The position numbers and the translations under genes were made by a program. From Alphaproteobacteria bacterium (lineage in GTDB: Bacteria; Pseudomonadota; Alphaproteobacteria; Micavibrionales; Micavibrionaceae), in assembly GCA_009995595.1 (NCBI GenBank), contig JAACPE010000001.1, positions 372,001 through 436,000 on the forward strand: 64,000 nucleotides of DNA, read 5' to 3'. Of the stretch, positions 2,618-12,472 are shown piece after piece (positions within the stretch are counted from its first letter, which is position 1; each line of letters begins with the position of its first letter). Under the pieces are notes generated by a model. It ran no database searches. It saw nothing but the letters and a program-made list of their open reading frames with translations, and had not been told where the DNA came from.

Positions 2618-5600
2618 TTAGGCAGCTTCGGTATCCTCATTTATTTCGGCGATTGCTGGAAAATAATCCTGAATAGGGGTGACGTCCATATCGCGATTTT
2701 TCATGGAACGAATGGCCTGAACGCCTGCACGCGCAGAAGTCATTAATGTGTAATATGGGATTTTATGTGCGAGCGCTTGTCGGCGGATAGAAAAGCTATC
2801 GGCAACCGCTTGTGGCCCTTTGGTTGTGTTAATCATAAAATCTATATCTTCGTTAATGATAGCATCTACAATGTGGGGGTGACCTTCCATAACCTTGTTA
2901 ATCCGTGTTACCTCAAGGCCAGCCTCTTGAAGAGAAGCGCAAGTCCCACCCGTTGCAACAAGGGTAAAGCCCATATCTTTTAGATCTTTGGCAAGCGGTA
3001 TGAGCGACTCTTTATCACTGTCTTTAACAGATAAGAACACCTTTCCGCTTGTGGGTAAAACAACACGCGCCGCAAGCTGCGATTTTGCAAACGCTTGCGC
3101 AACATCTTTATCAATGCCCATGACTTCACCAGTTGATTTCATTTCTGGCCCTAAGATTGTATCTGTGCCCGGAAAACGGTCAAATGGGAAAACGGGCGCT
3201 TTAACGGCAGTGTGCTCAGCACTCATACCAATCAGCAAGTCTTTAAAGTCAGAGAGTTTTTCACCTGCCATGACGCGCGCGGCGATTTTGGCGACTGGCA
3301 CATTAGTGGCTTTTGCAACAAAAGGGACGGTACGTGATGCACGCGGGTTCACCTCGATGATAAAGACATCATATTCACCTGTTTGTTTGTTCCGTTTTAA
3401 GGCAAATTGCACATTCATCAATCCCTTCACCTTCAGCGCTTTGGCGAGCATGATGGTTTGACGTTCGAGCTCTTTGACGGTTTTAAACGGAATAGAGTGC
3501 GGCGGCAGGACAGAGGCGCTATCGCCAGAATGCACGCCTGCTTCTTCGATATGTTCCATGATCCCAGCCACATAGACCTCTTTGCCATCGCAAATAGCAT
3601 CAACGTCCATCTCAATCGCGCCCTTAAGATATTTATCAAGTAGCACAGGGTTTTTACCCGAAACATTCATGGCGCGGCCCATATACCGTTCAAGCTCCTC
3701 CATGTTTTGCACAATCTCCATGCCTTGCCCGCCCAAAACGTAAGACGGGCGAATAACGAGCGGAAAGCCGATATCTTCAGCCATGTCGAGCGCTTCTTGT
3801 TTAGAATGAGCAAGTCCATTTTTAGGCTGGCGGAGTTTTAGTTTCTTAAGCAGTTTTTGGAAACGCTCACGATCTTCGGCGAGATCAATGGCATCAGGAT
3901 CAGTGCCCAAAATACGCACGCCGTTATCTTTAAGATAATTTGCAAGCTTAAGCGGCGTTTGCCCGCCAAGCTGAACAATAACGCCATAAACTTCACCATT
4001 TTCACTTTCGGCGCGGATAATTTCAAGGACGTCTTCCGCGGTTAGTGGTTCGAAGTATAAACGATCTGCAGTGTCGTAATCAGTGGATACCGTCTCAGGA
4101 TTACAATTGACCATGATGGTTTCATAACCAGCCTCTTGCAGGGCATAACATGCATGAACGCAGCAATAGTCAAATTCAATACCCTGACCAATGCGGTTTG
4201 GGCCACCGCCAAGGATGATCACTTTTTTCTTATCTGTTGGCTCGCATTCGCTCTCTGCGGGGTTCATGCCGTTGCCTTCGTAACAGCTATACATATAAGG
4301 CGTTTCAGAGGGGATTTCTGCCGCGCAACTATCAACGCGTTTATAGACAGGATGAATATTATGCTTAAGGCGCGCCAGTTTAACGCTTTCCTCATCGCTC
4401 CCAACAATCTTGGCAAGGCGGGCATCAGAAAAGCCCATTTTCTTGATCTCCAGCCATTTTTGTGGTGTTTTGGGCAGGCCGCTTTCACGGATTTCTGCCT
4501 CTTTGTTAATGATGTTCTCAATACGCTGTAAAAACCACATATCAATTTTACAGGCGGCGTGAATGTCCTTAAGGCTCATACCAAAACGCATGGCTTGGGC
4601 GACATAAAGAATGCGGCGCGGCGTAGGGACAGAGATCGCGGCGCGTATTTGGTCTATATGTGGTGCAACACCTTTTTTTGTGTCGCCAATTTTAATTTCG
4701 TCAAAGCCAGTGAGGCCTTCTTCCATGGAGCGCAATGCTTTTTGGAATGACTCTTCAAATGATCGTCCAAAAGACATAGCTTCACCAACAGATTTCATAG
4801 ACGTGGTGAGGCGTTTTTCTGATCCTTTGAATTTTTCAAAGTTAAAGCGCGGCATTTTCGTAACCACATAATCAATTGTCGGTTCAAACGAGGCCGGTGT
4901 TTTGCCGCCTGTGATATCATTTCCAAGCTCATCAAGCGTGTAACCAACGGCAAGTTTTGCTGCAACTTTTGCAATTGGAAAACCCGTAGCTTTTGACGCC
5001 AAAGCCGATGAGCGTGACACACGGGGGTTCATTTCAATAACAATCAATCGTCCGTCGGCGGGGTTAACGGCAAATTGAACATTTGATCCCCCTGTTTCAA
5101 CGCCAATACCGCGCAACACAGCCAGAGAGGCATTACGCATGATCTGGTATTCTTTATCTGTGAGCGTGAGTGCAGGGGCAACAGTAATTGAGTCTCCTGT
5201 ATGAACACCCATTGGGTCTACGTTTTCAATGGAGCAGACAATAATGCAGTTGTCATTTTTATCACGCACAACTTCCATTTCATATTCTTTCCAACCGAGC
5301 AGAGATTCTTCGACCAAAATTTGATTAATAGGTGAAGCGTCAATACCTTCGGTGGTGATTTGTAAAAATTGGTCTTTATTATATGCAATACCGCCCCCTG
5401 TACCACCCATGGTGAAAGCGGGACGGATGATCGCAGGGAGGCCAATTGTTTCAAGGGCAAGGTCGGCTTCTTCGCGATTATGGGCGAGCATTGATTTGGC
5501 AGATTCCAAACCCAACTTATCCATTTCTTTTTTGAAAAGATCGCGATCTTCGGCCTTGGCGATAGCTTCTTCATTGGCGCCAATAAGCTCAATACCCAGT

Positions 5601-5929
5601 CTTTTCAGTGTTCCATTTTCAGACAGTGCAAGCGCCGTGTTGAGGGCCGTTTGTCCGCCCATGGTCGGAAGAAGGGCATCAGGACGCTCTTTTTCCAAAA
5701 TCTTCGCAACAATAGCGGGTGTGATAGGTTCGATATAGGTTGCATCGGCCATTTCAGGGTCGGTCATAATGGTGGCTGGGTTGGAGTTTACCAAAATAAC
5801 GCGGTAACCTTCTTCTCGAAGGGCTTTACAGGCTTGCGTTCCTGAATAATCAAACTCACATGCTTGGCCAATAATAATTGGCCCTGCGCCAATGATGCAG
5901 ATGGATTTGATGTCGGTACGTTTTGGCAT
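2618..5929 (-). CDS. carB: Carbamoyl-phosphate synthase large subunit
   Basis: 1103 residues, full CarB length. It makes carbamoyl phosphate for arginine and pyrimidine synthesis from bicarbonate, ATP and ammonia delivered by CarA. Two homologous ATP-grasp halves are present: residues about 1-400 ([37 protein letters not shown]) phosphorylate bicarbonate, and residues about 560-940 ([37 protein letters not shown]) phosphorylate carbamate. The oligomerisation domain lies between them. Residues about 950-1103 form the MGS-like allosteric domain ([18 protein letters not shown]), where UMP and ornithine act in E. coli. AGAGAG before the ATG is a good ribosome binding site. It follows the spermidine-synthase-like gene by 9 bases and is not adjacent to carA. 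Confidence 0.98.
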
Positions 5930-5938
5930 TTTTCTCTC

Positions 5939-8137
5939 TTACTTTTCTTCGCTATGATTTTCTGACTTGTTTATATTCAATATCTTCATTGTTGCAATAA
6001 AATTGCTGTAATCATCAGTCCATGGTTTTGTATTGGTTTCAAAGCTTTGCCAATTTTTGGCCTGTAATTTTTGTGCAAGGGTAATATTGTCTGTGATAAT
6101 CGCCCATTCGCTGGATAGATCATAAGGATTTTTGTTTTCTTCCCAATGGTGGCGTTTTGTTAAGAATATATCACTGTTATGATCGGCAAGCGCAGATAAG
6201 GGGCCGCGCAAGTCAAGATGCCTGTTTGAGATATTGATGACGATGGAGCCATTATCAGTAAGCTTACTTTTATAGATGTCAAATGCTTCAACCGTTAATA
6301 AATGCGCCGGTATAGAATCAGAGCTAAAGACATCAAGAAAGATAATGTCATATATGTTTTTATCTTTTTCAAACGCCAAACGGGCATCGCCAATAACAAC
6401 CTCGTTATCCCCGCATTTTTCCAAGTACGTGAAATACTCACGTGCTACTTTTTCTACATGGGGATCAATCTCATATGAAACGGTCTTTGTTCCGCTTGAG
6501 TTGTAACAAATCAGTTGTCCTGCACCTAATCCTAAAACAGCGGTCAGTTTTGGTTTGACGATATTCATTACATCGCCAACAGGCCCATTTGCGGTATAAT
6601 ATCCCCATGGTTGATGTGCGGTTTGTTCATCAAGAGGCTGAAAACCGTGCAAAGTTGTCCCATGAAAAAACATGCGCGCTTTTGATTCAACATCAGCATA
6701 AAGTGAATGGTTCTGTACTTTTGTTACGCCAAAGAAGTTTCGATGGATATGTAAGTAATCTGAGGTGTTTAAGAGCGTAAAAACAAAGGCAATCGCGCTT
6801 ATCAAAAATAGTATTCTTGTGTTCACTGATGCAAAGAATAAAAGAACAGCAAGGATTAAAAACGGAACAGATCCAAAGGGTCCAAATCCTATATGCGCTG
6901 CTGCGACTATGGCGGCAATAACCGGTAGCGCCAAAAGTATTTTTGAAAGAGAGCGTGGAATTTTATCTTTGAATGACGGACTAAGCAGAAGGGATAAAAT
7001 AAGGATCGCCTGAAACTCATACACATCATTAAACAATGTCGGGGCGATAAAAGCATTAAAGCCGCCGCCTATTGCACCGCCCAAGGCCATAAATAAATAA
7101 AATTCAGTGAGTTTATTTGTAGAGGGTCGATCATTTGCAAGCTCGCTATGCAATAACATTGCGCTGATGGTAAAAATAATCAAATATAGGAGGGCGACAC
7201 CTAAAGAAATCAGCGTGCTTTCCCCTTGAATATTCGCCATGCCATGCACAAGGATAAGCACAACACCAATCGCGTGCATCGCCGCTAATTTTGATGTCTT
7301 AATCTGCCCCCGTTTTGCAAAAGCAATGATGTTGGTTAGCAAATAAAGACTAAGCGGTATGACCCATATCATAGGGGCAGAGGCAATATCTGTTGTAATT
7401 TCTGTTGTCACACCAAGCATAAGGCTTGATGGGATGGCAGCTAGCATGAGCCATCTCAAGCGGCGCTTCCATGAAACGGGATTAGTTTTATCTGTTGTCT
7501 CAGATTTTGGCTTACCAAAGAGTTTTAGGGTGAAAACACTTTTGTTCGTCTTTAAAATTAAAAGAGCGCAGGCAATAACGCAGAAAAATAAAACACCATA
7601 ACTCACCATCCAAAAATAGCTTTGGGCGCTTAAGCCTATAAGGGGTTCAAAAATGAGCGGATAGGCAAGTAAGCCTGTAAAACTACCTACGTTACTGGCG
7701 GCATATAGATAATAAGGGTCATTTGCAGTTTTGTGCTGGCTGAATGAAAAGAGGCGTTGTAATCCGGGTGCCAAAGTTGAAAGCGCCAGAAACGGAAGCG
7801 CAGCGGAGAGGGCTAATTGCACGAATATAATGAGAGGGGTAATCGCCTCATGCGCGCCACTTTTGTATAAAATAGGTAAAAATAAAGCGCCTGGGATAAA
7901 GACGCTTAAAATAGCTAGAGCATTCCACAGGGGCGTGAGCTTGGAAAAGATGTAAGCAAGTCCATAGCCAACAAGCAAACAGACCTGAAAGAAAAACATC
8001 GCCACAACCCAGCCAGCAGGTGAGCCTCCCACATGCGGGAGCATCATTTTACCAATCATAGGCTGTACAGAAAAAACAAGAGTAGCGGAAAGAAAGAGCG
8101 TAAACGCAAAGAGGTAAGGGGCTATTTTTGTTAACAC
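5939..8137 (-). CDS. Membrane-integrated spermidine synthase-like protein
   Basis: 732 residues. Residues 1 to about 460 hold many hydrophobic segments (for example FAFTLFLSATLVFSVQPMIG near the start), like the transporter-like N-terminal half of fused MFS/spermidine-synthase proteins. Residues about 480-720 form a Rossmann methyltransferase-type fold: AVLGLGAGQLICY as the nucleotide loop, SYEIDPHVEKVA as the acidic strand end, VVIGDARLAF and DIIFLDVFSSDSIPAHLLT. Whether such proteins make polyamines is unproven. The start is GTG at 8137; a six-codon ORF (MKAEQC) begins at 8151 and overlaps it. It lies 9 bases upstream of carB, so the two are probably cotranscribed. Confidence 0.82.
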   Translation of the reverse strand: MLTKIAPYLFAFTLFLSATLVFSVQPMIGKMMLPHVGGSPAGWVVAMFFFQVCLLVGYGLAYIFSKLTPLWNALAILSVFIPGALFLPILYKSGAHEAITPLIIFVQLALSAALPFLALSTLAPGLQRLFSFSQHKTANDPYYLYAASNVGSFTGLLAYPLIFEPLIGLSAQSYFWMVSYGVLFFCVIACALLILKTNKSVFTLKLFGKPKSETTDKTNPVSWKRRLRWLMLAAIPSSLMLGVTTEITTDIASAPMIWVIPLSLYLLTNIIAFAKRGQIKTSKLAAMHAIGVVLILVHGMANIQGESTLISLGVALLYLIIFTISAMLLHSELANDRPSTNKLTEFYLFMALGGAIGGGFNAFIAPTLFNDVYEFQAILILSLLLSPSFKDKIPRSLSKILLALPVIAAIVAAAHIGFGPFGSVPFLILAVLLFFASVNTRILFLISAIAFVFTLLNTSDYLHIHRNFFGVTKVQNHSLYADVESKARMFFHGTTLHGFQPLDEQTAHQPWGYYTANGPVGDVMNIVKPKLTAVLGLGAGQLICYNSSGTKTVSYEIDPHVEKVAREYFTYLEKCGDNEVVIGDARLAFEKDKNIYDIIFLDVFSSDSIPAHLLTVEAFDIYKSKLTDNGSIVINISNRHLDLRGPLSALADHNSDIFLTKRHHWEENKNPYDLSSEWAIITDNITLAQKLQAKNWQSFETNTKPWTDDYSNFIATMKILNINKSENHSEEK

Positions 8138-8317
8138 TGTTCGGCTTTCATAATTTGTTTTACCGAAGATGACTAATTAAGCCATTAACCGCACTATATC
8201 AATGCTAAATGCTTAAAAAAGCCAATCCGTTCGCAATTATTTCATGATAGGGCTTATTTTATGGCCTCATTTTAAATTTTCTACTTTTTTTAACGCTTTT
8301 GTATTATGATTTTTTCC

Positions 8318-8632
8318 ATGACACATAAAGCAAAAAAGATTGTTATTATTACCGAAAAATTGATTGTTGAGAAAGTGACGAAGCTTATTGAACAGTGCGG
8401 GGCAACAGGATACACGATTTTTTCAGCAGGCGGTAAAGGCAGTCGTGGTGTGCGCTCTGAAGAGCGCGGGGGCGTGTCAGAAGCCTATGCCAATATAAAA
8501 ATAGAGGTGATTGTCACCAACGAAGAGTTGGCGCACGAAATCATCAATAAAGTCACTGAAAAGTACTTTTCCAATTATTCAGGCATCACATACATTGAAA
8601 ATGTTGAGATTGTCCGTCCTCAAAAATTCTAA
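8318..8632 (+). CDS. sbtB: SbtB-like PII family protein (bicarbonate transport regulator)
   Basis: 104 residues of the PII fold. The stretch IVIITEKLIVEKVTKLIE, then GATGYTIFSAGGKGSRGVRS, matches SbtB, the trimeric PII-like partner of bicarbonate transporter SbtA; GGKGSRGVR is the nucleotide-loop region. The C-terminus ends VRPQKF, lacking the CGPEGC-type redox tail of some SbtB. ATG at 8318 is preferred over 8306 because TATGAT (8305-8310) sits 7 bases before it as a -10 box and neither start has a ribosome binding site; the first is possible. It is convergent with sbtA (10 bases between stops), unlike the same-strand arrangement usual in cyanobacteria. In cyanobacteria SbtB senses adenine nucleotides and inhibits SbtA. 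Confidence 0.87.
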   Translation: MTHKAKKIVIITEKLIVEKVTKLIEQCGATGYTIFSAGGKGSRGVRSEERGGVSEAYANIKIEVIVTNEELAHEIINKVTEKYFSNYSGITYIENVEIVRPQKF

Positions 8633-8642
8633 CCCTTAAGCC

Positions 8643-9656
8643 TTAAAAGACAGCTTCGGCCATCGCGATAAATAGCGGAATACACACTGCAATCGCAATC
8701 GGTGTCCCGATACTTGTTGATGCACCGATATAGCAAGAAGGGTTGGCAGTCGGTATGCCTGCTCTCAATGTTGGCGGGCCAGAGACGTCAGAGCTTGAGG
8801 CCGCTAATATTGATAAAATCACTACGCCGCCCGGACTAAACCCAACTGTGACATGGGCAATGTACCCAAGGCCAAAGCCAATTAAACCATGGATTATAGG
8901 GGCACAAAGTGCATAAACGGCAAACCAATGCGCAACTTTCCGTAGCTCTTTCAGACGGGTATAAGCTTCCATACCCATTGTTAACATGAGTATCGAGAGT
9001 AGCCCCTTAAAGAGCGGGTCGTAAAACCCTTCAAATACTTTTTCCGTGTTGGCAAAAAGCCCGAGCGCCATACCGAGCAATAGCGCAGAAAGGGCGGCGC
9101 TTCTTAAGCTATCTGTAATAATTGACCACGCGGTAACTGGCGTTTCACTCTCTTTGCCTTCAGCAGCGTTTTTCTTGGACAGATAGAGGTTGGCAAGAAC
9201 AATAGCCAAAATCAGCGCTGGGATATCCATAAACGGATAAAGTGCAGGCGCCCATGCTTCATACGTCATACTGTGTTCTTCTAAAATCGACATGGCGGCG
9301 GCTAAGGTTGAGGCGCTGACCGCGCCAAACAGGCCTGCCGTTGCAAGGCCGTCTTCTTTTTTGATACTTTTAATTCTGGAAAATAAAAATGCGCCAAGAA
9401 CTACAATCACAACGCCGATAATAATTGTCATCAATGCGGGCAAAAGCATATCAATCAGATTGGCATCTTTAATTTCCATGCCGCCGCTAATGCCGATACG
9501 CATAAGAAGCATGAAGACTGCGAATTGATATATTGCATTGGGAATTTGTAGTTTAGAGCCAAGGGCGGCGATCAGCATTCCACCAATCAAAAACGCTAAG
9601 GCAGGCGATTGAAATTGCGTTATGAATTTTATGGCAAAATCTAAAATAATATCCAT
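8643..9656 (-). CDS. sbtA: Sodium-dependent bicarbonate transporter SbtA
   Basis: 337 residues, close to the usual SbtA length, with about ten hydrophobic helices in two inverted halves. The opening DFAIKFITQFQSPALAFLIG, LGSKLQIPNAIYQFAVFMLL and MRIGISGGMEI are family hallmarks, as is SSDVSGPPTLRAGIPTANPS near the C-terminus. SbtA imports bicarbonate with sodium across the inner membrane. AGGAAG lies before the ATG. It is 9 bases downstream of the carbonic anhydrase gene in the carA operon and tail-to-tail with sbtB, its presumed regulator. The hydrophilic loop ahead of the second half (SKKNAAEGKESETPVTA) is where regulation occurs in cyanobacterial proteins. Confidence 0.93.
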   Translation of the reverse strand: MDIILDFAIKFITQFQSPALAFLIGGMLIAALGSKLQIPNAIYQFAVFMLLMRIGISGGMEIKDANLIDMLLPALMTIIIGVVIVVLGAFLFSRIKSIKKEDGLATAGLFGAVSASTLAAAMSILEEHSMTYEAWAPALYPFMDIPALILAIVLANLYLSKKNAAEGKESETPVTAWSIITDSLRSAALSALLLGMALGLFANTEKVFEGFYDPLFKGLLSILMLTMGMEAYTRLKELRKVAHWFAVYALCAPIIHGLIGFGLGYIAHVTVGFSPGGVVILSILAASSSDVSGPPTLRAGIPTANPSCYIGASTSIGTPIAIAVCIPLFIAMAEAVF

Positions 9657-9665
9657 GAGGACTTC

Positions 9666-10304
9666 CTATTTTGTTTGTCTGCTATCTAGAACATTTTCTT
9701 CAATGCTCATAAGGGTAAAGCCATTTTTATCCGCGTTGTACTCAAACAAATCGCCTGATTTCATATCAAACTGCCATGCTTTTATGCTAATCCGTTCTTC
9801 TTTAAGGGCTTTTTTGACGGAAGGATAGTTTTTTAAGTTTTCCATACTCTCCAAAATTACGCCTTGTTCGGTATGGGCGATAATATCATCTTGATTATTG
9901 CAACATGAAACGGCCTTTGTATGGGCATGGCGTGCCACTTCAATAAAGCTTGAGATTTCAGGATCATCAAGCTTTTCGGCTAGCGCCTTGATAGCGCCGC
10001 ATCCCGTATGACCCATGATAATAACATTTTCGATATTATTATATTCAAGCGCGAATTGAAGCGCCGCAGAGAGCGCTGTCCCTTGGCGATAGGGGCGGAC
10101 AATCGCGCCCATGGCCTTATGCGTAAAGAAAATACCGGGCTGCGCCCGAAAGATCGTGACGGGGTTACAGCGTGAATCAATACAGGAAATAATGAAATAC
10201 TTTGGGTCTTGCCCCAACTCCGCGAGCATCTGCATCCGCGAATTTTCTGTATCATAATGATACTTCTTAAATTCTTGCAGTCCTTTAAGCAGGTCTTGGG
10301 TCAT
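9666..10304 (-). CDS. Beta-class carbonic anhydrase
   Basis: 212 residues, normal for beta carbonic anhydrases. It interconverts carbon dioxide and bicarbonate. Zinc ligands are visible: Cys in SCIDSRCNP (with the Asp-Arg dyad), then His and Cys in MGHTGCGAIKAL. THKAMGAIVRPY is the second conserved core strand. No signal peptide is seen, so the enzyme is cytoplasmic. ATG at 10304 follows the stop of the helical gene by one base and sbtA follows by 9 bases, so carA, this gene and sbtA share one transcript. The enzyme could balance the bicarbonate imported by SbtA and used by carbamoyl-phosphate synthase. Confidence 0.95.
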   Translation of the reverse strand: MTQDLLKGLQEFKKYHYDTENSRMQMLAELGQDPKYFIISCIDSRCNPVTIFRAQPGIFFTHKAMGAIVRPYRQGTALSAALQFALEYNNIENVIIMGHTGCGAIKALAEKLDDPEISSFIEVARHAHTKAVSCCNNQDDIIAHTEQGVILESMENLKNYPSVKKALKEERISIKAWQFDMKSGDLFEYNADKNGFTLMSIEENVLDSRQTK

Positions 10305-10305
10305 T

Positions 10306-10737
10306 TTACAAAATTTCTTGATTTGTATGAGTATCTATAAAATCGTGAAAACTAGAGGGCCACTTTCTTTCGACACTAAATTCTTCATAATAGCTCTTAT
10401 AGTTTATCAATGTCGCTAAAATATAACTTCTAGCAACATCTTTGATTTCTAATTCAAAATTGCCGCCTAATTTTTCAAGTTCTTCATACTTAAAACCATG
10501 TTTTAGAATATTTTTCACATAACGAACTTGCTTAAGGATTGCTTCAACTTCTCCTACTTTATATAACTGGAGAAGATTCTTTTTCATTATATTAAATGCT
10601 TGGTTTTCTTTTTTTAAAATTTTGTTCAAATATTCTTCTGCGGCACCCGCTAAAGTAACTGAAGGAATATATATTTCCTTATTGTAAAAATCGATAGCAT
10701 AGTAAAGCTGTGTTTTAGCTATGTGATCATATTCCAT
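10306..10737 (-). CDS. Small all-helical protein, HEPN-like, coupled to carA
   Basis: About 143 residues, predicted almost wholly helical. The N-terminal pattern AKTQLYYAIDFYNKEIYIPS followed by VTLAGAAEEYLNKIL resembles a widespread group of uncharacterised HEPN-like proteins, in which a small helix-rich domain often opens with a similar LAGAAEE box. The RxxxxH motif of nuclease HEPN proteins is not visible, so no RNase activity is claimed. The ATG at 10737 overlaps the last base of the carA stop codon (a GTG at 10740 is alternative), and the stop is one base before the carbonic anhydrase ATG. It is more AT-rich than its neighbours, which could mean later acquisition. Confidence 0.6.
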   Translation of the reverse strand: MEYDHIAKTQLYYAIDFYNKEIYIPSVTLAGAAEEYLNKILKKENQAFNIMKKNLLQLYKVGEVEAILKQVRYVKNILKHGFKYEELEKLGGNFELEIKDVARSYILATLINYKSYYEEFSVERKWPSSFHDFIDTHTNQEIL

Positions 10738-11924
10738 CACGCCGCTTTTTTCTCGTTGATCATATCAATGAAGCGCTGGAAGAGATAATGGCTGTCTTGC
10801 GGGCCGGGGGAAGCTTCGGGGTGGTATTGAACACTAAAGACTGGTTTTGTTTTATGGCGGATCCCTTCGTTTGTGCCATCAAACAAGCTCACATGTGTGA
10901 CCTCTGTATCTTCAGGTAAGCTCTCAGGGATTACCTTAAAGCCATGGTTTTGTGAGGTGATTTCTACCTTACCCGTTGTGTTGTCTTTAACTGGGTGGTT
11001 CGCGCCGCGATGGCCTAAATGCATTTTCTCCGTCTTTGCGCCAAGGGCAAGTGCGGTAAGTTGATGACCCAGACAAATACCAAAAATTGGCATATTTTGA
11101 TCAATTAGCGCTTTAATCGTCGGCACGGCATAAATACCAGTCGCCGCAGGATCTCCCGGACCGTTGGATAAAAACACACCATCGGGTTTATGATTCATAA
11201 TATCTTCGGCAGTGGCGTTGGCAGGAACAACCGTGACTTTACAGCCAGCAGAAGCTAGGCATCGCAAGATATTGCGTTTCGCACCAAAATCCATGGCGAC
11301 AACATGCAGCGTTGGGTTTTCTTGTTTGCCGTGACCCTTACTCATATCCCACAATGTTTCATCCCATGAATAAGTTTGCGTGCAGGACACTTCTTTAGCC
11401 AGATCAAGCCCTTCAAGGCCGCCCCAAGCGGCGGCTCTGGCTTTCAGGTCTTCAATATCGAACTTTCCATCTTGGCGGTGGCATAAGATACCGTTTGGCG
11501 CGCCGCTGTCACGGATGCGTCGGGTTATTGCGCGTGTGTCAAGGCCGCAAATACCCGGCAGGTCATGGCTTTTGAGCCATTTATCAAAATGTTGTGTGCT
11601 TCTATAATTCGATGGGTCTGTGATGTCTTCGCGGATAATCGCGCCGCATGAGGCCACATTGATTGTTTCAATATCATCACTATTTGTGCCAACATTGCCG
11701 ATATGGGGGAAAGTGAAAGTGATGATCTGCCCTGCATAAGAGGGGTCAGTCAAAATTTCTTGATAGCCTGTGAGTGAGGTATTAAAGCAAATCTCGCCAA
11801 TTTTCTCTACTTCTGCTCCAACGCCACGACCATAAAAAACGCTGCCATCGGCTAAAACGAGGGCGGCAGTCGCATTATCGGGTATGTCAGTGGAGGAGGC
11901 TTGCTTTGAGGCGTTTTTTAGCAT
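10737..11924 (-). CDS. carA: Carbamoyl-phosphate synthase small subunit
   Basis: 395 residues from the ATG at 11924, chosen because GGAAAGA stands 7-8 bases before it; an in-frame start at 12020 would add 32 unlike-family residues and run into the divergent gene. CarA is the glutaminase that supplies ammonia to CarB. The N-terminal CPSase domain (ALVLADGSVFYGRGVG, CFNTSLTGYQEILTDPSYAG) spans about residues 15-160. The class I glutamine amidotransferase domain follows, with nucleophile Cys in IFGICLGHQLTALALG and the His-Glu pair in VQYHPEASPGPQD. It heads an operon with the helical gene, carbonic anhydrase and sbtA, and diverges from the yqeY-like gene. Confidence 0.97.
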   Translation of the reverse strand: MLKNASKQASSTDIPDNATAALVLADGSVFYGRGVGAEVEKIGEICFNTSLTGYQEILTDPSYAGQIITFTFPHIGNVGTNSDDIETINVASCGAIIREDITDPSNYRSTQHFDKWLKSHDLPGICGLDTRAITRRIRDSGAPNGILCHRQDGKFDIEDLKARAAAWGGLEGLDLAKEVSCTQTYSWDETLWDMSKGHGKQENPTLHVVAMDFGAKRNILRCLASAGCKVTVVPANATAEDIMNHKPDGVFLSNGPGDPAATGIYAVPTIKALIDQNMPIFGICLGHQLTALALGAKTEKMHLGHRGANHPVKDNTTGKVEITSQNHGFKVIPESLPEDTEVTHVSLFDGTNEGIRHKTKPVFSVQYHPEASPGPQDSHYLFQRFIDMINEKKAA

Positions 11925-12013
11925 AAAAAATCTTTCCAGTATTGGGGCTTGAGGATTCAGTCTCACTGGAAGAAGATTTAGTACATACTTTAGCCAAAGA
12001 TTGGAAGAAAAAA

Positions 12014-12472
12014 GTGACAAAAAGAGAAGATTTCAACAGCGCGCTCAAAGAAGCCCTTAAAAGTAAAGACCAAGTCGCCCTGTCAACCATACGTCTGATT
12101 ATGGCCGCTTTGAAAGATCGTGACATCAGCGCGCGCGGTAAAGGGCAGGCTGAAGGTATTGATGACGCGGAAATTCTCTCAATGATGCAGTCTATGGTTA
12201 AACAGCGCCAAGAATCTGCAAAAACCTATAGTGACAATGGCCGCCCAGAGCTTGCGATGCGTGAAGAAGCAGAAATTATGGTTATCCAAAAATTCTTACC
12301 CATTCAAATGAGTGATGATGAAGCGGGCGCTGCAATTGAAGAAATTATCGCCGAAACAGGCGCCGACAACATCAAAGATATGGGCAAAGTCATGGCCGTC
12401 CTAAAAACCAAATACGCTGGCCAACTCGATATGGCTAAAGCAGGTGCTATGGTAAAGGTAAAATTGGGTTAA
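12014..12472 (+). CDS. GatB/YqeY domain-containing protein
   Basis: 152 residues from a GTG at 12014; GGAAGAAAAAA precedes it as the ribosome binding site, and this start matches the family opening (TKREDFNSALKEALKSKD), while an ATG at 11942 would add 24 residues in the carA promoter zone. YqeY proteins share the C-terminal domain of GatB, the amidotransferase subunit that recognises tRNA, and are thought to affect aminoacyl-tRNA handling; the exact role is unsettled. Visible markers: STIRLIMAALKDRDISARGK, EEAEIMVIQKFLPIQMSDDE, DMGKVMAVLKTKYAGQLDM. Its place between carA and dnaG is a common alphaproteobacterial arrangement. Confidence 0.92.
   Translation: MTKREDFNSALKEALKSKDQVALSTIRLIMAALKDRDISARGKGQAEGIDDAEILSMMQSMVKQRQESAKTYSDNGRPELAMREEAEIMVIQKFLPIQMSDDEAGAAIEEIIAETGADNIKDMGKVMAVLKTKYAGQLDMAKAGAMVKVKLG

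Follow-up and report, generated by a model that had tools for sequence, protein, structure and literature searches.

Carbamoyl-phosphate synthetase (CarAB) uses bicarbonate (HCO3-) as the substrate of its first step, and genes that handle bicarbonate are found inside the carA-carB locus of an alphaproteobacterium of the family Micavibrionaceae (assembly GCA_009995595.1, contig JAACPE010000001.1). The stretch of DNA analysed, hereafter the window, comprises 64,000 nucleotides (positions 372,001 to 436,000), and within it a beta-carbonic anhydrase (beta-CA; CA for carbonic anhydrases in general), a bicarbonate transporter of the SbtA family and its PII-like regulator SbtB are encoded between carA and carB (Table 1). 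The question raised by this locus is what these genes do there. The favoured answer, to which a probability of about 0.6 is given, is that the locus co-expresses a source of bicarbonate with carbamoyl-phosphate synthetase, the old form being carA-CA-carB, to which sbtA and sbtB (sbtAB) were added later.

A sequence-only reading of the window had proposed a substrate-supply unit for arginine and pyrimidine synthesis. Its direction was right, in that a bicarbonate module is present, no RuBisCO was found and the tie to car genes recurs, but the core of the arrangement is beta-CA, with SbtA and SbtB a younger element of five genomes. The interpretation is thus partly supported, and is restated here as a recurrent carA-CA-carB order with SbtA/SbtB as an add-on or a replacement. 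Among titles and abstract openings of the open-licence literature, no description of this order, or of SbtA in a car locus, was found.

Recurrence of carbonic anhydrase at the car locus

Gene order was surveyed in 58 genomes of the order (G000-G057) searched for SbtA, beta-CA and carA, of which 48 matched beta-CA and seven matched SbtA. The carA gene or a piece of it was placed in 51 (unplaced in G009, G039, G041, G045, G049, G052 and G055), by a short piece only in G054 and in two pieces in G010. In 20 of these 51, a co-directional beta-CA lies at most 1.2 kb downstream of carA, in some with one other open reading frame (ORF) between the two, as in the window, and carB follows further on in all 20. 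The anhydrase is the sole gene between carA and carB in G004, G005, G012, G016, G019, G030 and G035. The two matched pieces of carA in G010 (locus L028; 65% and 72% identity) fall within one 424-aa open frame, which perhaps carries an internal insertion. G049 and G052, of 97% and 100% stated completeness, gave no true carA match (best 4e-7 and 8e-9); the best matches are likely other amidotransferases, and these organisms are perhaps unable to make carbamoyl phosphate via carA.

A search of 104 genomes of the family added 34 with the same type of CA, and in 33 of them it adjoins carA and/or carB, the exception being G472. Several of these views are partial: G441 and G464, where the sequence towards carA is short, show only carB, G480 shows only carA before its contig ends, and G502 has carA with no carB within the 5 kb available. 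Adding 19 members of the family from the first set, and also G032, in which CA and carB are found together and carA elsewhere, brings the tally for one CA lineage beside carA and/or carB to 53 of the 104 genomes and 22 of the 39 genera. This count leaves out G472 and G027, which possess the lineage with no car gene seen beside it (the G027 contig stops about 200 bp beyond the CA match), while G047 belongs to another family of the same order.

In the CA tree, which contains several very long branches, 21 car-linked rows and two others form one group (97/82). The lineage is nearly confined to the car site (21 of 23 rows), and one of the remaining two, that of G032, lies by carB. The CxDxR and HxxC motifs, which hold the zinc ligands and the Asp-Arg pair of beta-CAs, are both present in 19 of the 21 car-linked rows. 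Diverged copies were seen at the car site in L046, L050 and L055 (G030, G034 and G047); in G034 the second of two tandem copies lacks CxDxR, and the G047 protein has neither motif. A carB tree made by a quick method fits an old presence of CA with several losses.

As a control for the class, 385 genomes were searched for CA. Outside the order 216 matched, the best-scoring 80 of these were searched for carA, and 62 were positive; none of the 62 has CA within 10 kb of carA among the CA matches listed, which rules out, for those matches, a carA-CA pair common across the class. Set against 20 of 51, this gives a Fisher p of 1e-8, a statistic that ignores shared ancestry. As judged from sequence, the conserved core is not SbtA but a beta-CA lying between carA and carB, long established in the family. 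The survey of car loci that the sequence-only reading had called for thus bears out the CA neighbour widely, and the sbtA neighbour in five genomes only.

Contents of the carA-carB gap

The carA-carB gap might instead be an insertion-tolerant housekeeping site, at which CA and later sbtAB, as general bicarbonate or pH genes, were inherited with no tie to CarAB. The gap was surveyed in 62 loci where a single stretch carries both carA and carB, 29 of them chosen for having CA and two for sbtA, with 31 unselected loci from the first set. Unrelated genes do share it, as a tolerant site would predict: a family that we take to be GxxExxY-like occurs in six loci, phospholipid-methyltransferase-like genes in five, MFS/spermidine-synthase-like genes in four and GNAT genes in four, beside SbtA and SbtB in five each. 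Neighbours listed for sbtAB in other lineages were not car genes, and CA serves all carboxylases. However, no other family exceeds six of the 62 loci, whereas CA is present in 48 by script, or 49 with G497, which the script missed, and is always co-directional; the set is enriched for CA, and the unselected loci give 20 of 31. Furthermore, CA stays by carB in G032 though carA is elsewhere, and a second bicarbonate gene, sbtA, reached the same gap, in two genomes without beta-CA. Inheritance at a tolerant site is accordingly regarded as unlikely, if still a rival of some weight.

A group of ORFs on the opposite strand of the gap (19 rows) was set aside, since 14 have over 90% of their length within the CA gene and the remaining five overlap it. 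The MFS/spermidine-synthase-like gene is also found between carA and carB in G006, G008 and G050 (three tandem copies), and a GNAT acetyltransferase directly follows carA in G001, G008, G439 and G440 (L020, L027, L123 and L124; Pfam was run on three).

The tight gene order could also reflect physical channelling, with the anhydrase docked on CarAB to deliver HCO3- locally and SbtA adding import. In four genomes (G002, G004, G005 and G016) the CA ORF runs 8 bases past the inferred start of carB. Still, none of the loci read showed a fusion, and carA and carB stand directly side by side, with nothing between, in G003, G020 and G053, the first two having a CA of another lineage located elsewhere. 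Channelling is considered improbable, and co-expression of a bicarbonate source with CarAB is preferred.

Distribution and history of SbtA and SbtB

SbtA occupies the car site in five genomes of two genera. G007 and G008, of the same genus as the window genome, have it alongside CA (SbtA 82% identity), and G439 and G440 represent another genus (73% identity). The five proteins form one clade (98/94) next to that of G052, of the same order (80/89), with the sequences from Haliea, Rhodobacteraceae and G041 outside it. In G439 and G440, carA is followed by GNAT, sbtA, sbtB on the opposite strand and carB, and G440 has one additional small ORF. A search for PF00484 was negative in both G439 (90% complete) and G440 (8 contigs, 100% complete), and bicarbonate import apparently takes the place of CO2 hydration in this genus.

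SbtA and SbtB are, from these comparisons, a putatively later and younger addition at the car site. The simplest account is that sbtAB reached the gap once, before the two genera diverged, with subsequent losses, sbtA being absent from seven of the ten searched members of the window genus (G009 being only 77% complete); transfer between relatives is a possible alternative history. Distant Sbt proteins (25-28% identity) are present in five other genomes of the family (G011, G462, G493, G494 and G505), and no car gene was seen beside them, in stretches of about 1.5 kb on each side for G462, G493 and G494.

SbtA and SbtB are best known from cyanobacteria (PMC8352866), and the genes might be thought to serve autotrophic or anaplerotic carbon fixation. 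The sequence-only reading had itself named RuBisCO elsewhere in the genome as a finding that could explain the module better. The window genome (99.97% complete) was searched for the RuBisCO large subunit and none was found, carboxysome genes being outside the search, while a control search was positive in five of 14 named genomes. RuBisCO autotrophy was rejected on this result. Among carbon-fixing enzymes the search covered RuBisCO, leaving aside phosphoenolpyruvate carboxylase, the remaining enzymes of anaplerosis and further fixation pathways, and a role in fixation of any kind is judged very improbable.

Proteins of the window locus

The window SbtA matches PF05982 (transporter class TC 2.A.83) at 297.9 bits over positions 1-307 of 308, indicating homology over the length of the family, and aligns nearly end to end with Synechocystis SbtA (PDB 7cye; E 7.5e-128). 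In this alignment all residues of the Na+ site (F110, G111, A112, A320 and S322, Synechocystis numbers) and of the HCO3- site (S114, Y140, S324 and S327) are identical, while 7cye residues 166-204 (39 residues) are reduced to about 4. The nine residues are those of PMC8352866, where the HCO3- site was docked and backed by mutants. The window protein is, by sequence, a predicted Na+/HCO3- symporter and a close relative of Synechocystis SbtA.

Likeness to the Synechocystis SbtA-SbtB pair (slr1512/slr1513) extends to SbtB, which has a PII match and for which the best structure matches are SbtB structures (6mm2 and 6n4a; E 8-9e-29). The C-terminal CGPxGC loop is absent from the alignment, the protein terminating in RPQKF. 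This redox loop is kept in some SbtBs only (PMC8352866), and because it is not obligatory, membership of the SbtB group stands. Unlike the cyanobacterial systems, the window genes belong to a carA-carB locus in a genome without RuBisCO, and sbtB is convergent with sbtA.

The beta-CA carries CIDSR (Cys41-Asp43-Arg45) and HTGC (His99-x-x-Cys102) and is the single PF00484 match in the window genome. Its Cys-Asp-Arg and His-x-x-Cys motifs are shared with Can and CynT of E. coli, but it is encoded between carA and carB and belongs to a lineage of its own (PRK10437 50.2 bits, cut-off 251). OTCace_N, of the aspartate/ornithine carbamoyltransferase family, has two matches in the window genome.

Wedged between carA and beta-CA is a small, AT-rich ORF. 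It matched no Pfam or NCBIfam family at 0.001, only weak PADLOC and Pfam matches being returned, and its structure model is helical and of low confidence (mean pLDDT 46.5). A KNILKH stretch may be reminiscent of HEPN proteins. A known defence protein was rejected, the PADLOC matches being weak only (E 0.0027 and 0.0063), as was a viral origin of the ORF or of beta-CA, for which scans of viral contigs gave no relative. Because tblastn at 1e-4/1e-5 found no match in the other compared loci, the ORF, seen only in the window, stands outside the conserved arrangement.

Gene order in the window

The sequence-only reading had described carA, the small ORF, beta-CA and sbtA as one minus-strand run, sbtB as tail-to-tail with sbtA, and carB as lying beyond one further gene, and the layout agrees in each respect (Table 1). 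Read from the sequence, the stop of carA overlaps the ATG of the small ORF by 1 base (junction -1), beta-CA follows after 1 bp and sbtA after a further 9 bp, and 10 bp separate the convergent sbtA and sbtB. The carB gene lies outside the uninterrupted carA-to-sbtA run, with opposite-strand sbtB and one more gene intervening, and begins 9 bp after the latter. The divergent gap of 168 bp that separates the ORF of sbtB from the MFS/spermidine-synthase-like gene may contain a promoter driving the latter and carB. Promoter-like patterns in 7900-12200 number 15 against 8.4 expected, and terminator-like patterns 8 against 4.8, both mostly inside genes.

Table 1. Features of the car locus in the window (window positions)
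Feature	Position	Strand	Evidence and remarks
carA, carbamoyl-phosphate synthetase small subunit	10737..11924	-	TIGR01368 467.5 bits (cut-off 307); ATG at 11924
Small helical ORF	10306..10740	-	144 aa from GTG, 143 aa from ATG at 10737
Beta-carbonic anhydrase (beta-CA)	9666..10304	-	PF00484 9.7e-33
SbtA, Na+/HCO3- symporter family, cyanobacterial type	8643..9656	-	PF05982 1.2e-88
SbtB, PII-like regulator	8306..8632	+	PF00543 4.7e-20; likely start ATG at 8318
Fused MFS/spermidine-synthase-like membrane protein, between sbtB and carB	5939..8137	-	NF037959 57.7 bits (cut-off 40)
carB, carbamoyl-phosphate synthetase large subunit	2618..5929	-	NF003671 1712.7 bits

A model of bicarbonate supply

The model proposed here starts from what was observed directly, namely the gene identities, the retained catalytic and binding residues, the gene positions, their recurrence and the phylogeny. 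CO2 would enter the cell by diffusion, and its uncatalysed hydration may limit anabolic HCO3- at the CO2 level of air (PMC9894237). The anhydrase, if active in hydration as its motifs predict, would convert CO2 to HCO3- for the first step of CarAB. Its placement between carA and carB would, through presumed co-transcription, tie the supply of HCO3- to the demand for carbamoyl phosphate in arginine and pyrimidine synthesis. In the ancestor of the window genus and its neighbouring genus, the sbtA-sbtB pair would then have entered the same gap, so that SbtA may import HCO3- with Na+, adding to or replacing the supply from CA, while SbtB may bind SbtA and gate it in a manner responsive to adenyl nucleotides. 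CarAB would be the main beneficiary; since the carboxylases of the cell would draw on one cytosolic pool of HCO3-, the others should profit as well, and no exclusivity to CarAB is claimed.

Known systems give the model a setting. E. coli without Can lacks an internal supply of HCO3- in air (PMC4275256). As described in PMC9894237, either CA or transport of inorganic carbon can meet the need for HCO3- in lipid, nucleotide and arginine synthesis, as in engineered E. coli provided with inorganic carbon transporters (DAB, SbtA) or CA. The locus described here resembles these strains in that import or CA would meet the anabolic need, and differs in that the exchange seems to have arisen naturally and sits at the locus of a single HCO3- consumer. 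The T-loop of SbtB partly blocks the exit tunnel of SbtA, and SbtB inhibits uptake in E. coli, although its in vivo role is called unsolved in the same study (PMC8352866).

A number of observations weigh against the model. Synteny kept by descent does not prove functional coupling, and in 31 of the 51 genomes of the order for which carA was placed, no CA lies next to it. Because a convergent gene and another gene separate carB from the carA run in the window, a single car transcript is doubtful there. A cell with both SbtA and a cytosolic CA, the combination seen in the window, is at risk of a futile cycle in which CO2 may leak out again, a cost discussed in PMC9894237; and an SbtA-like protein of Labrenzia gave no uptake in E. 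coli (PMC4275256).

The distribution of the genes adds further reservations. Beta-CA and SbtA are both missing from G001, G028 and G036, and because these genomes have neither, neither protein is indispensable. SbtA is present in three of ten genomes without beta-CA and in four of 48 with it (p 0.09, n=58), so that a role for SbtA as a general stand-in for a missing beta-CA is not significant. A gamma-CA-like protein is present in G000, G001 and G440, and for this reason the lack of a beta-CA does not equal the lack of any CA; the G440 hexapeptide protein matches gamma-CA and YrdA structures, it and the G001 homologue score 171 and 165 bits against the gamma-CA model (cut-off 250), and a 168-aa hexapeptide protein of the window genome resembles both by eye. 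Finally, sbtAB is found in G041 with no car gene in the 20 kb available (genome 73% complete, no carA match) and in G052 on a 3.3-kb contig, in a genome without a carA match. Given these two occurrences SbtA can serve other carboxylases, which speaks against an exclusive tie to CarAB.

Implications

The need of heterotrophs for carbonic anhydrase, and the identity of the carboxylation that limits them, have so far been argued from mutants. The frequent occurrence of CA between carA and carB, with an importer instead in one genus, amounts to a natural experiment pointing at carbamoyl-phosphate synthetase. A stronger version, in which carA-CA-carB is a dedicated substrate-supply operon, SbtA under the control of SbtB is a natural drop-in replacement, and carbamoyl-phosphate synthetase is, in these bacteria, the carboxylation for which the supply of HCO3- is growth-limiting, is offered tentatively, as a possibility with the odds somewhat against it. 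SbtA and SbtB would in either case gain a setting outside photosynthesis, one in which the signal sensed by SbtB could be read against the demand for nitrogen and nucleotides.

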